DNA of 64,000 nucleotides from Pseudomonadota bacterium (GTDB lineage Bacteria; Pseudomonadota; Gammaproteobacteria; Burkholderiales; Chitinibacteraceae). Under the pieces are notes generated by a model. The model was not told the DNA's origin, searched no databases, and saw only the letters and a list, made by a program, of their open reading frames with translations. The stretch spans positions 1 to 64,000 of the forward strand of contig JAGTRM010000009.1 in assembly GCA_018261735.1 (NCBI GenBank), read 5' to 3'. Below, piece by piece: positions 5,052 to 63,564 of this stretch. A program made the translations under genes and the position numbers. Each line of letters opens with the position of its first letter. Position 1 is the stretch's first letter.

Positions 5052-7115
5052 GTGTGGCGCGAATTTAACCTCACCCGGCTGGCTGGCCCGATTCTCGTGC
5101 TGATGATCCTCGGCATGATGATTCTGCCGTTGCCGGCGATCGTCCTGGATTTCTTCTTCACCTTCAATATTGCCATTTCGGTGATCGTGTTGATGGTGAG
5201 CCTTTACGCGCGCGAGCCGCTGGAATTTTCCTCGTTCCCGACCGTGCTGCTGATGACCGCCCTGATGCGGCTCTCGCTCAATGTTGCATCAACCAAACTG
5301 GTGCTGACCGAAGGCCACACCGGGCCGGATGCGGCCGGCAAGGTGATCGAATCGTTCGGCCACGCCTTGATCGGCGGCAACCTCACGGTGGGCCTGGTGG
5401 GTTTCGTGATCCTGACCATCATCAATTTCGTCGTGATTACCAAGGGCGCAGGGCGAATCGCAGAAGTTTCCGCCCGCTTCACCCTGGACGCCATGCCCGG
5501 CAAGCAGATGGCGATCGATGCCGATCTCAACGCGGGCCTGATCGGCGAGGAAGAAGCCCGCAAGCGCCGTGCCCAGATCGCGCAGGAATCCAACTTCTTC
5601 GGCTCGATGGACGGCGCCTCGAAGTTCGTGCGCGGCGATGCGGTCGCCGGCATCATGATCATGATCATCAACATTGTCGGCGGATTGTCCGTCGGCATGC
5701 TGCAACACAACCTTGGCTTCGCCGAAGCGGGCACCACCTACACCCAGCTCACCATCGGTGACGGCCTGGTTGCCCAAATTCCCGGACTGATCATTTCCGT
5801 CGCCGCCGGTATCGTTGTCTCCCGGGTCAGCAACAACGAAGACCTGTCCGAACAATTGCTCGGCCAGCTATTCCGGAAACCGCAGGTGCTGTACGTCACT
5901 GCCGGCGTCATGGCTATCCTGGGCATCACGCCCGGCATGCCGCACTTTGCCTTCCTGATGATCGCCGCCGGCACCGGCGGGCTGGCCTGGTGGCTGGTGC
6001 AAGACACCAAGAAGAAAGAAGCCGCAGCCAAACAAGCCCCCGCCGCCGCAGCCAAACCAGCCGCCGAAGCGCCGCTGCAGGATGTCAGCTGGGCCGATGT
6101 CCAGCCGGTCGACCCGATCGGGCTGGAAGTAGGTTACCGTCTGATTCCATTGGTCGATCGCGCACAGGATGGCGAACTGCTGCGCCGCATCCGTGGCATC
6201 CGCAAGAAAATTGCGCAGGAACTGGGCTTTCTGGTCCCGGCCGTGCATATCCGCGACAACCTGGAACTAAAGCCCAACCAGTACCGTATCCAGCTCAAGG
6301 GGGTGGATGTTGGCGCCGGGGAAGCCTATGTGGGGCAATGGCTGGCGATCAATCCCGGCAATGCGGCCGGCAGCCTGGCCGGCACACGCACGCAGGATCC
6401 GACTTTCGGCCTGCCCGCGGTCTGGATCGATGCCTCATTGCGCGACCAGGCACAGGCCATGGGCTACACCGTCGTCGACGGCAGCACCGTGGTCGGCACC
6501 CATATTTCCAACATCCTGCAAAACCACGCCGCCGAATTGCTCGGCCGCGAAGAGGTGCAGCAGCTGCTTGACCATACCGGCAAGGAAACCCCGAAACTGA
6601 TCGAAGACCTGGTTCCGAAGGTCATCCCGATCGGCACTTTGCAGAAAGTACTGCAAAATTTGCTGGAAGAAGGCATGCACATCCGCGACATGCGCACGAT
6701 CCTGGAAACCATCGCCGAGCATATCGTGCGCACGCCAGATATCGACGAACTCACCTCCGCCGTGCGCGTCAGCCTCGGCCGTGCCATTGTGCACCAGCTA
6801 TTCCCGGGCGAAGATGAATTGCAGGTCGTTGCGCTGGAACCACAGCTCGAGCACATCCTGCTCTCTGCGGCTTCGGGCAAATCGCAAGGCGGCCTGGAGC
6901 CGGGATTGGCAGAGCGACTGCTGCAGCAAGCGACCGCCGTGGTTGAAAACATGGAAAGCCAGGGACTCAACACCGTACTGATCTGCCCGGCGCAACTGCG
7001 CCCGATGCTGTCGCGCTTCCTGCGCCGTTCCACCCCCGGTCTGCGCGTGATTGCCCATACCGAAATTCCGGACAACAAGACCATCCGGATTGTCGGACTG
7101 CTCGGCGGGCAGTAG
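5052..7115 (+). CDS. flhA: Flagellar export gate protein FlhA
   Basis: 687 aa with a GTG start and a weak ribosome-binding site. About eight N-terminal membrane helices with the FHIPEP family signature region (SARFTLDAMPGKQMAIDADL) lead to a long Ala/Lys linker at about 320-345 and a soluble C-terminal domain that binds export chaperones and substrates (DVQPVDPIGLEVGYRLIPLV onward). FlhA is the proton-driven core of the flagellar type III secretion gate. It ends 16 bases before the converging aceK stop; flhF, its usual neighbour, is displaced by 2 kb. Confidence 0.97.
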   Translation: MWREFNLTRLAGPILVLMILGMMILPLPAIVLDFFFTFNIAISVIVLMVSLYAREPLEFSSFPTVLLMTALMRLSLNVASTKLVLTEGHTGPDAAGKVIESFGHALIGGNLTVGLVGFVILTIINFVVITKGAGRIAEVSARFTLDAMPGKQMAIDADLNAGLIGEEEARKRRAQIAQESNFFGSMDGASKFVRGDAVAGIMIMIINIVGGLSVGMLQHNLGFAEAGTTYTQLTIGDGLVAQIPGLIISVAAGIVVSRVSNNEDLSEQLLGQLFRKPQVLYVTAGVMAILGITPGMPHFAFLMIAAGTGGLAWWLVQDTKKKEAAAKQAPAAAAKPAAEAPLQDVSWADVQPVDPIGLEVGYRLIPLVDRAQDGELLRRIRGIRKKIAQELGFLVPAVHIRDNLELKPNQYRIQLKGVDVGAGEAYVGQWLAINPGNAAGSLAGTRTQDPTFGLPAVWIDASLRDQAQAMGYTVVDGSTVVGTHISNILQNHAAELLGREEVQQLLDHTGKETPKLIEDLVPKVIPIGTLQKVLQNLLEEGMHIRDMRTILETIAEHIVRTPDIDELTSAVRVSLGRAIVHQLFPGEDELQVVALEPQLEHILLSAASGKSQGGLEPGLAERLLQQATAVVENMESQGLNTVLICPAQLRPMLSRFLRRSTPGLRVIAHTEIPDNKTIRIVGLLGGQ

Positions 7116-60748: not shown

Positions 60749-62116
60749 ATGAATGAAGAAATCCAGGGCGAAGCGCTCAAGCGCGGATTGAAAAATCGCC
60801 ATATCCAGTTGATCGCGCTGGGCGGCGCGATCGGTACCGGGCTGTTCCTGGGCATTGCACAGACCATCAAGATGGCCGGGCCTTCCGTGCTGCTGGGCTA
60901 TGCGCTCGGCGGCTTCATTGCCTTCCTGATCATGCGCCAGCTCGGTGAAATGGTGGCCGAAGAGCCGGTTTCCGGCTCGTTCAGCCATTTTGCCTACAAG
61001 TACTGGGGCGACTTTTTCGGTTTCCTCTCGGGCTGGAATTACTGGGTGCTCTATATCCTGGTCAGCATGGCCGAGCTCTCCGCCGTAGGCATCTATGTGC
61101 ATTTCTGGTGGCCGGACATACCGACCTGGGTTTCCGCCGCAGTATTTTTCGTGGTGATCAATGCGGTGAACCTGGCCAACGTCAAACTGTTCGGCGAGAT
61201 GGAGTTCTGGTTCGCGCTGATCAAGGTTGTGGCCATCATCGGCATGATCCTGTTCGGCGGCTGGCTGCTGTTCACCGGCACCGGCGGCCCGCAAGCCTCG
61301 GTCAGCAACCTGTGGGCGCTGGGCGGCTTCTTCGCCAACGGCTTCAACGGCTTTGTGCTGTCGCTGGCAATCATCATGTTTTCGTTCGGCGGGCTGGAGC
61401 TCGTCGGCATTACCGCGGCTGAGGCCGATGATCCGCGCCACAGCATTCCGCGCGCGGTGAACCAGCTGATCTACCGGATCCTGATCTTCTACATCGGCGC
61501 GCTGGCGATCCTGCTCGCGCTGTTCCCGTGGAGCCAACTGGCCGAAGGCGGCAGCCCGTTCGTGCTGATCTTCTCGGCGCTGGGCAGCAACCTGACGGCC
61601 AACCTGCTCAACGTCGTCGTGCTGACTGCTGCCCTGTCGGTCTACAACAGCGGCGTGTACTGCAACAGCCGCATGCTGCATGGCCTGGCCCAGCAGGGCA
61701 ACGCGCCGCGTATCCTCGCGCATGTCGACAAGCGCGGCGTGCCGGTTCCCGCCATCCTGGTTTCGGCCGTGGCAACCTTTGCTTGCGTGGTGCTCAACTA
61801 CCTGGTGCCGGGCAAGGCCTTCCAGCTGCTGATGGCGCTGGTGGTCGCCTCGCTGGTGATCAACTGGGCCATGATCAGCCTGGCGCACATCAAGTTCCGC
61901 CGCGCCAAGATCCGCGAAGGTGTTGAGCCGGTGTTCAAGGCTTTCTGGTTTCCGTTCAGCAACTACCTCTGCCTGGCATTCCTGGCCTTCATGCTGGTAC
62001 TGCTCTACCTGAACGGGGAAAAAATTGCTGTGGGACTGGTGCCGGTCTGGCTGGGATTGATTTGGCTCGGCTATCGTTTCAAAACACGGCCGCTTTCACT
62101 GGCTACAAACCAATAA
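60749..62116 (+). CDS. Amino acid permease (AAT/APC family)
   Basis: 455 aa from the ATG at 60749 (GAGGAAA ahead). Twelve membrane helices; the family marker KNRHIQLIALGGAIGTGLFL, broken over residues 16-34, EMVAEEPVSGSF and PFVLIFSALG are typical of the enteric aromatic/GABA/proline permease group. The exact amino acid is not readable. It is followed by the candidate small RNA. Confidence 0.92.
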   Translation: MNEEIQGEALKRGLKNRHIQLIALGGAIGTGLFLGIAQTIKMAGPSVLLGYALGGFIAFLIMRQLGEMVAEEPVSGSFSHFAYKYWGDFFGFLSGWNYWVLYILVSMAELSAVGIYVHFWWPDIPTWVSAAVFFVVINAVNLANVKLFGEMEFWFALIKVVAIIGMILFGGWLLFTGTGGPQASVSNLWALGGFFANGFNGFVLSLAIIMFSFGGLELVGITAAEADDPRHSIPRAVNQLIYRILIFYIGALAILLALFPWSQLAEGGSPFVLIFSALGSNLTANLLNVVVLTAALSVYNSGVYCNSRMLHGLAQQGNAPRILAHVDKRGVPVPAILVSAVATFACVVLNYLVPGKAFQLLMALVVASLVINWAMISLAHIKFRRAKIREGVEPVFKAFWFPFSNYLCLAFLAFMLVLLYLNGEKIAVGLVPVWLGLIWLGYRFKTRPLSLATNQ

Positions 62117-62267
62117 AGGCAATTAAACCAATTAAAACACTGCAAACTGCCAGAAAATTTGACGTCCCGCTCGGTCACTCAGGGAAACCGGAGGGCGACA
62201 ATGCCGGCAAAATGTAGTTCATGTGAAAATTCACCCAAAACATCGGGTAACTTTACTACCAAAATAA

Positions 62268-62296
62268 TTGAGGAATGGCGGGGATTTGCGTATAGT
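62268..62296 (+). promoter_or_regulatory. Sigma-70-type promoter of the candidate small RNA
   Basis: -35 TTGAGG at 62268-62273 and -10 TATAGT at 62291-62296, exactly 17 bases apart. Expected transcription start is about 62303. Confidence 0.7.
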
Positions 62297-62302
62297 TCAG
62301 TT

Positions 62303-62430
62303 GTCGCCCAGCTGCATGGGCGGTGTACTGCAAGTTTGGTTTCGCGGTTTTCCGCAAATCGAACCTCTTCTCCTCCTCCTCGGCCCGATTACGGATGCTT
62401 GCCAGAAGCAACCGAATCGGGTGTTTTTTT
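62303..62430 (+). ncRNA. Candidate anti-Shine-Dalgarno small RNA, about 128 nt
   Basis: Ordered elements: hairpin 1 CGCCC / GGGCG (62305-62322); hairpin 2 at 62334-62364, with a 13-pair stem (one bulged C) closed by GCGG-TTTT-CCGC; an unpaired CUCUUCUCCUCCUCCU tract (62365-62380); and a terminator hairpin CCCGATT / AATCGGG with inner pairs (62384-62421) followed by a T-run. The promoter is 7 bases upstream. The layout resembles neisserial sibling sRNAs that pair with ribosome-binding sites, but I claim similarity of design, not homology. Confidence 0.68.
62384..62430 (+). terminator. Intrinsic terminator of the small RNA
   Basis: Stem CCCGATT-CGG / CCG-AATCGGG with an inner GCTT/AAGC part, then GTGTTTTTTT. 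It is on the plus strand and cannot serve the minus-strand reductase. Confidence 0.9.
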
Positions 62431-62520: not shown

Positions 62521-63564
62521 TCAGCCTGCTGTACTGGATGCTGCCCAGATGTTCAAACCCGCATCGCTGGCCCAGACATCGATTTCAGCCAGTTCTTCAG
62601 CTGAAAAAGCCAGATTGGACAATGCCGCCACGTTCTCCTCCAGCTGGCTGATTTTGCTGGCGCCAATCAAGGCCGAAGTCACGCGCAAATCACGCAAAAC
62701 CCAAGCCAGCGCCATTTGTGCCAGCGATTGCCCCCGCCGTTGCGCGATATCGGCAAGGCCCTGGATTTTCTCCAGATTGGAGGATTCCAGGAAGTTTTCG
62801 CGAAACGAGGGCGAACTCTTGGCCTTGCGCGAATCGGCCGGAATCCCGCCCAGATACTTCCCGGTCAAGAGGCCCTGCGCAAGCGGCGAAAACACGATAC
62901 AGCCGATATCCTGCTCTTCGAGCGTATCGAGCAAATCCTCTTCGATCCAGCGATTGAGCATCGAATATGAGGGCTGGTGAATCACGCAAGACATGCCCAT
63001 TTCCCGCAGTAGGGCCGAGGCTTCGCGGGTCTTTTTCGCCGAATACGACGAAATCCCGGCATACAGCGCCTTGCCCTGTTTGACGGCTGTGGCCAGTGCA
63101 CCCATGGTTTCTTCCAGCGGCGTATCCGGATCAAAGCGGTGCGAATAGAAAATATCGACATAGTCGATCTGCATCCGCTTCAGGCTCTGGTCCAGACTGG
63201 CCAGCAGGTACTTGCGCGAACCGTCGACGCCGTACGGGCCGGGCCACATCCGGTAACCGGCCTTGGTGGAAATGATCAGCTCGTCGCGATAGGCAGCCAG
63301 ATCCGTGGCAAGCACCCTGCCCAGCAATTCCTCGGCGGCACCGGGCGGCGGACCATAGTTGTTGGCCAGATCGAAATGGGTGATGCCAAGATCGAAAGCC
63401 CGCAGCAACAAATTCTTGGCGCTGGAGAAATCCGCCTCTCTGCCGAAGTTTTGCCACAGCCCCAGCGACAGGGCAGGCAATTGCAAGCCGCTGCGGCCCA
63501 GCCGCCGATACGGCATCGAATCATAGCGGGTCGTGCTGGCAACATAGTTAACACCGGACATCAT
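62521..63564 (-). CDS. Aldo/keto reductase (YghZ/Gpr-type)
   Basis: 347 aa. (beta/alpha)8 NADPH-dependent reductase with catalytic Tyr in FDLANNYGPPPGAAEE, VDIFYSHRFDPDTPLEET, and an NADPH-binding end (ALIGASKISQLEENVAAL). Closest to L-glyceraldehyde-3-phosphate reductase / methylglyoxal-reducing YghZ group. GGGAG precedes the ATG. A perfect palindrome lies upstream. Confidence 0.92.
   Translation of the reverse strand: MMSGVNYVASTTRYDSMPYRRLGRSGLQLPALSLGLWQNFGREADFSSAKNLLLRAFDLGITHFDLANNYGPPPGAAEELLGRVLATDLAAYRDELIISTKAGYRMWPGPYGVDGSRKYLLASLDQSLKRMQIDYVDIFYSHRFDPDTPLEETMGALATAVKQGKALYAGISSYSAKKTREASALLREMGMSCVIHQPSYSMLNRWIEEDLLDTLEEQDIGCIVFSPLAQGLLTGKYLGGIPADSRKAKSSPSFRENFLESSNLEKIQGLADIAQRRGQSLAQMALAWVLRDLRVTSALIGASKISQLEENVAALSNLAFSAEELAEIDVWASDAGLNIWAASSTAG

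Follow-up and report, generated by a model that had tools for sequence, protein, structure and literature searches.

A predicted anti-Shine-Dalgarno small RNA of Formivibrio with a HexR-type promoter element and relatives across the Chitinibacteraceae that carry a 30-amino-acid reading frame

The stretch of DNA analysed here, a window of 64,000 nucleotides, comes from a Formivibrio species (Chitinibacteraceae, Neisseriales) whose genome is available as a 3.78 Mb draft, 94% complete. Close to the end of the window, between genes for an AroP/PheP-like amino-acid permease (60749..62116, forward strand) and an aldo/keto reductase of the L-glyceraldehyde 3-phosphate reductase family (62521..63564, reverse strand), both of which we place outside the system, lies a predicted small RNA of ~128 nt (62303..62430, forward strand, as are all its parts), recognized by its fold and by homologues retrieved with covariance models. 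The folding energy of 62303–62430 is −50.4 kcal/mol against a mean of −36.4 for shuffled sequences (z = −4.2, with none of 200 shuffles equally low), and the fold consists of two hairpins, an open CU tract, and a terminator hairpin with seven Ts. Stem-loop 1 (62304..62323) displays the loop GCUGCA and is followed by stem-loop 2 (62334..62364), the 18-nt anti-Shine-Dalgarno (anti-SD) tract CUCUUCUCCUCCUCCUCG (given also as CTCTTCTCCTCCTCCTCG; 62365..62382), which is the predicted seed, and an intrinsic terminator (62383..62430) made of a hairpin at 62383–62422 and a T7 run at 62424–62430. In the folding ensemble of the window copy the tract is 96% unpaired, and the two hairpins, unpaired tract and T-run terminator of the original prediction are hereby borne out.

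The RNA recurs elsewhere in the genus. A second copy is present on another contig of the host genome (87% identity over ~130 nt), the sister genome Formivibrio sp. MAG_CA269 has four, one of which (L003) is syntenic with the window copy, and Formivibrio citricus DSM 6150 has one (covariance model match, E = 1.4e-16). The two, four and one copies in these three genomes are dispersed and have differing neighbours: the permease and the aldo/keto reductase flank only the window copy and its sister ortholog L003, whilst copies L002 and L004 neighbour ahpC and a TRAP transporter, and the F. citricus copy neighbours ahpC and ychJ. Since the gene neighbours vary between copies, the permease is no guide to function, and the earlier expectation of amino acid or TCA cycle targets, which had been derived from it, loses its footing. 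The tract CUCUUCUCCUCCUCCUCG is identical across five Formivibrio copies. The genus shows the defining features of sibling anti-SD sRNAs: multiple related copies with a common C/U-rich tract that is unpaired and whose sequence complements ribosome-binding sites.

Both primary sequence and structure are conserved among these copies. Positions 62301–62420 share 83–97% identity with the syntenic copy of the sister species, compared to ~43–70% across most of the intergenic flank. In an alignment of seven homologues, 93.3% of the structure-paired cells can pair, and two-sided changes that keep the pairing were found in 13 of 38 pairs, distributed over helix 1 (5/8), stem-loop 2 (2/13) and the terminator (6/17); this alignment was fitted to the model, and the counts therefore lean toward the structure. 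Neither value was reached in any of 500 shuffles, and sliding the pairing partners lowered the paired fraction to at most 51%. When the five copies were aligned with MAFFT instead, RNAalifold recovered these three helices again, and 10 pairs changed on both sides. The hairpins and CU tract that a covariance search of related genomes had been expected to reveal are thus indeed there.

A BLAST search in 60 relatives found copies in the genus only, and a pattern scan of 84,980 species gave good model scores only at Formivibrio loci, the other 57 genome loci and a single viral locus being chance-like. Six matches outside the family from order-wide model searches (G205, G413, G346, G282, G339, and G312) look on inspection like coding sequence or unrelated terminators. 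At a further locus outside the family (G423 L165, match start 1501), GACTCCTCCATCCTCC / CACGACTCCTCCATCCTCCTCC stands ahead of a terminator-like T-run and has ~16 nt in common with the family tract. In Rfam 15, no match reached the gathering score in the window or over the Formivibrio and relative RNAs tested, and relaxed thresholds yielded no member either. The only match at the gathering score among the RNA loci tested was a different element, sX9 (RF02228, L148 1610–1686, reverse strand); 3' of it, at ~5551–5591 of host contig G000:C8 (reverse strand; L148 1501–1541), another CU tract with a terminator (GAGGACTCCTCCTCTTATCCCGCTGATTCAGCGGGA-T9) was seen, which is possibly a further anti-SD RNA of the host genome. 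The earlier proposal of an undescribed small RNA whose anti-SD tract lies exposed is well supported, since the RNA has paralogues, covaries, keeps its tract and matches nothing in Rfam: a genuine small RNA, not listed before, is very probably encoded in the window, and the family to which it belongs is real and undescribed.

Upstream of the RNA, a −35 box TTGAGG (62268..62273, forward strand), whose TTGA is kept in the copies, and a −10 box TATAGT (62291..62296, forward strand), which aligns with TATAGT/TATATT/ATACAT-like boxes in the copies, form the sigma-70-like promoter predicted earlier. Its presence and conservation are upheld, although the match TTGAGG-17-TATAGT at 62268–62296, taken alone, is at chance level (1 found vs. 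1.3 expected from shuffles). A palindrome, GTAACTTTACTAC (62247..62259, forward strand), is situated 8 nt upstream of the −35 box and resembles a HexR operator. All 37 promoters compared, from Formivibrio and other genera, have a GTA-N7-TAC palindrome upstream of the −35 TTG at a distance of 7–8 nt; these loci are related and hence not independent, and dinucleotide shuffles average 0.165. The arms of this operator differ among genera (GTAGCAATACTAC, GTAATTTAAGTAC, GTAGTTTTTCTAC, and others) and the GTA/TAC ends are constant; among the Formivibrio operators, that of the window copy is the most degenerate, reading GTAAC in place of GTAGT. A second conserved block, TGTAGTTCATGTGAAAATTCAC (62213..62234, forward strand), is common to five Formivibrio copies as TGTAGTTnnTGTGAAAATTnAC, and a similar block is found at L002–L005 and L030, in the F. 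citricus copy, and in other genera. Judged by this conservation of promoter elements, the functional unit starts farther upstream than the RNA itself, at ~62213. Within 62213–62234 of the window copy we observed a GTAGT half-site and a GTGAA-N2-TTCAC palindrome. One sibling in MAG_CA269 (L006/L040) lacks the operator and is located directly 3' of an MFS transporter gene, as a 3'-UTR-type sibling.

In the host genome, this motif also stands at the promoter between the divergent genes edd and zwf, at pyk, and at the promoter of another edd. A genome scan with the 15-mer (up to two mismatches) was not enriched over a reversed-pattern control, and the weight of the motif rests on where intact palindromes fall rather than on the scan counts. 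The sole RpiR-family gene found in the host genome is hexR, which sits between pgl and pgi and passes the NCBIfam HexR cut-off (304 vs. 296 bits); an RpiR/HexR-type palindrome in the promoter is thereby accompanied by hexR in the same genome, as for members of a HexR regulon. Because the motif recurs at edd/zwf, pyk and the second edd, and because hexR is the only RpiR gene found, control of the promoter by HexR and its ligand KDPG is the best inference and likely, which points to sugar-phosphate control instead of the amino acid or TCA cycle connection proposed at first. The alternative that keeps a genuine trans-acting anti-SD sRNA and has the palindrome read by another regulator, making the sugar-phosphate link through HexR wrong, draws on Pseudomonas, where RccR, a related regulator that answers to KDPG, recognizes TGTAGT/ACTACA palindromes of such length (15 bp), and HexR recognizes TTGT-N7-8-ACAA (PMC5489143); moreover, the draft is 94% complete, so another RpiR regulator could be missing. 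Against this stand the identity and location of hexR and the occurrence of the motif at zwf/edd and pyk, and even under RccR the signal would be unchanged; we regard another regulator as unlikely, although it is the strongest of the competing explanations. Under HexR control, the position of the operator upstream of the −35 box would fit activation, with repression also possible: VcdRP is repressed through a CRP site that likewise lies ahead of the −35 box (PMC8672173).

The weak matches that our first model gave in other genera turned out to be the 3' ends of a longer transcript. In 30 of 43 genomes, covering most other Chitinibacteraceae genera, the same promoter and the same 3' end with UUAUCGACUCCUCCAUCCUC and a terminator enclose an open reading frame (ORF) of 30 amino acids. 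The ORF was found once per genome in 28 of the 43 Chitinibacteraceae genomes by BLAST, and in two more via the RNA; its consensus is MRTLxKIxKNxExxQRLLVKSYGWQLTLxR (e.g., L105 1501–1593) and it is preceded by an AAGGAG-type site. Within-genus pN/pS values are 0.11–0.39 in most genera (0.28 overall), with the 0.92 of genus g7 explained by one additional codon left unaligned. Neither Pfam nor NCBIfam contains a match to the peptide, and a 399-genome sample of the order gave no convincing one outside the family, where a single hit was returned (G229, E = 0.002). 3' of the ORF, every aligned locus has an invariant AUCGACUC, a CU tract (e.g., UUAUCGACUCCUCCAUCCUC) and a GC-rich terminator, and in a ten-sequence subset the hairpins of these ORF-bearing relatives covary. 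GTAGT half-sites were also seen repeated inside the transcribed region, between the ORF and the CU tract (L105, L108, and L110). In nine genomes of genus g8, neither the ORF nor the RNA is convincing.

The ORF is absent from the window copy and from the other Formivibrio copies, and the two forms are nevertheless homologous by several lines of evidence, namely the promoter, the 3' end, reciprocal models and synteny. A covariance model built solely from ORF-bearing loci, with Formivibrio left out (R3), recovered both host-genome copies (E = 9.1e-6 and 3.3e-5), the four copies of the sister genome (E = 7.7e-5 to 0.013) and the F. citricus copy (E = 6.8e-4), whilst the RNAs of F. citricus and of genome G011 share a position just 3' of ychJ. 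In one further genome, G006, the promoter and the RNA are kept and the ORF is absent. The G006 RNA resembles that of genus g3, which retains the ORF, and this suggests that the ORF was probably lost more than once. A candidate dual-function RNA appears to be the ancestor of the Formivibrio RNAs, which would have shed the ORF and multiplied.

The ORF-bearing form also admits a reading in cis, in which the CU tract of the relatives pairs with the ribosome-binding site of the 30-amino-acid ORF or acts as an attenuator, and the Formivibrio tract is a non-functional relic. The AAGGAG site of the ORF would suit such pairing, as would the full-length folds of the relatives, which leave the tract only partly open (0.34–0.82 unpaired). 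However, Formivibrio and G006 have kept promoter, tract and terminator in the absence of the ORF, and the Formivibrio tract, compared with that of the relatives, is longer, invariant and fully open in five copies, with up to four copies per genome, and we consider the cis reading improbable. That ORF-less copies keep the tract, and have it longer, argues instead that it would act in trans, not on its own leader. We hold it probable that the RNA is a trans-acting sibling anti-SD sRNA, governed by HexR and descended from an ORF-bearing, family-wide transcript. As one of a sibling set in Formivibrio, the ~128-nt RNA would act in trans by base pairing, with its unpaired CUCUUCUCCUCCUCCUCG tract annealing to purine-rich ribosome-binding sites and blocking translation of the target mRNAs. 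HexR, the KDPG-responsive regulator of the Entner-Doudoroff pathway, would bind the GTA-N7-TAC site found upstream of the −35 box and, when KDPG-free because no sugar is being degraded, would activate the RNA; repression is the alternative. Such a circuit would probably serve to keep sugar uptake or central carbon enzymes in step with the carbon supply. The ancestor would have been the longer family-wide transcript encoding the 30-amino-acid protein, with Formivibrio losing the ORF and multiplying the RNA.

Judged from the promoter element, targets in sugar uptake or central carbon metabolism are more likely than amino acid or TCA cycle targets. In the host genome, a nine-nucleotide complement of the tract, AGGAGGAGACAAAGATG, is found at the start of a gene whose product is the substrate-binding protein of a sugar ABC transporter. 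The anti-SD target pattern has few sites in this genome, with counts barely above those of a reversed-pattern control, and the sugar ABC transporter is only a lead.

Two further explanations concern what kind of element this is. That the locus is a mere strong terminator or untranslated region of the permease gene, with neither a promoter nor a function of its own, is suggested by its place 3' of the permease on the same strand, by a promoter match that by itself does not exceed chance, and by the position of sister copy L006 behind an MFS gene with no operator; we think this very unlikely, given that copies set among unrelated genes keep the promoter block and that the whole RNA body, not the terminator alone, is conserved and covaries. 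Membership in the Betaproteobacteria toxic small RNA family (RF02278) or among the neisserial NmsR/RcoF siblings we discount almost entirely. In its favour, the CU tract and terminator are similar in style and RF02278 is the only Rfam match (E = 0.65). This match, however, scores 16.3 bits against a gathering score of 50, and the NmsR RNAs are tandem, respond to RelA and carry one anti-SD region between SL1 and SL2 and another in the SL2 loop (PMC5362039), whereas the copies described here are dispersed on separate contigs with different neighbours and have a single tract between stem-loop 2 and the terminator. RF02278 shares a UCUCCUCC tract followed by hairpins and a terminator, in a model of 64 nt compared to the 128 nt of our RNA. 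NmsRA/NmsRB (RcoF1/2; NgncR_162/163) are likewise sibling anti-SD sRNAs of the order Neisseriales, with UC-rich single-stranded anti-SD regions and a role in central metabolism (PMC5362039, PMC9973317). Repression of TCA-cycle mRNAs is among their features. The neisserial comparison drawn in the original prediction survives for the style of action, and not for descent or layout; there the control is by RelA, and here a HexR-type operator is found.

To our knowledge, only a small number of dual-function RNAs have been described, and those among them with a link to carbon, SgrS and VcdRP, come from gammaproteobacteria. SgrS/SgrT of enteric bacteria is tied to SgrR and glucose-phosphate stress. 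It differs from our RNA in this regulator (probably HexR/KDPG here), in sequence and in seed, and our RNA has no Rfam match; it shares with the ORF-bearing relatives a small ORF upstream of a distal base-pairing segment and, probably, sugar-phosphate-linked control (PMC8672173). Within SgrS/SgrT, the base-pairing part is conserved and the ORF is present in only some species (PMC8672173). The wider Chitinibacteraceae family also resembles VcdRP of Vibrio cholerae: both have a ~300-nt transcript with an ORF of 29–30 amino acids (29 in VcdRP) first and then a C-rich pairing tract and terminator, a carbon-regulator site upstream of the −35 box and a link to carbon metabolism (PMC8672173). The VcdRP peptide, VcdP, binds the citrate synthase GltA. 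VcdRP has a CRP site and a four-cytosine tract, where the present family has a HexR/RpiR-type site and an extended CUCCUCC anti-SD, and Formivibrio has lost the ORF and multiplied the RNA; the likeness is one of anatomy. Most other genera present the dual-function anatomy at the sequence level (an ORF with an SD site, under purifying selection), while the window copy and the other Formivibrio copies, which have no ORF, fall outside this class. A literature search found no HexR-controlled sRNA, and in Bns1, the only neisserial sRNA for which dependence on HexR was tested, none was seen (PMC4423775).

Beyond the original prediction, the analysis yields paralogues, a HexR-type operator and ORF-bearing relatives, along with a conserved 30-amino-acid small-protein family that matches no Pfam or NCBIfam entry. 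The broadest reading, on which we are evenly divided, is that a dual-function RNA controlled by KDPG/HexR, not described before, is common to the Chitinibacteraceae as a family, that Formivibrio and G006 independently dropped its protein, and that Formivibrio amplified it into a set of HexR-controlled riboregulator siblings. If true, the Neisseriales would hold an unrelated instance of a dual-function RNA, one linked to HexR/KDPG. As related genera have this promoter and RNA either with the ORF or without it, a comparison of natural variants would tell the role of the protein from that of the RNA and, if the reading is correct, the family would document in nature how a dual-function RNA becomes a set of regulators that are wholly non-coding.
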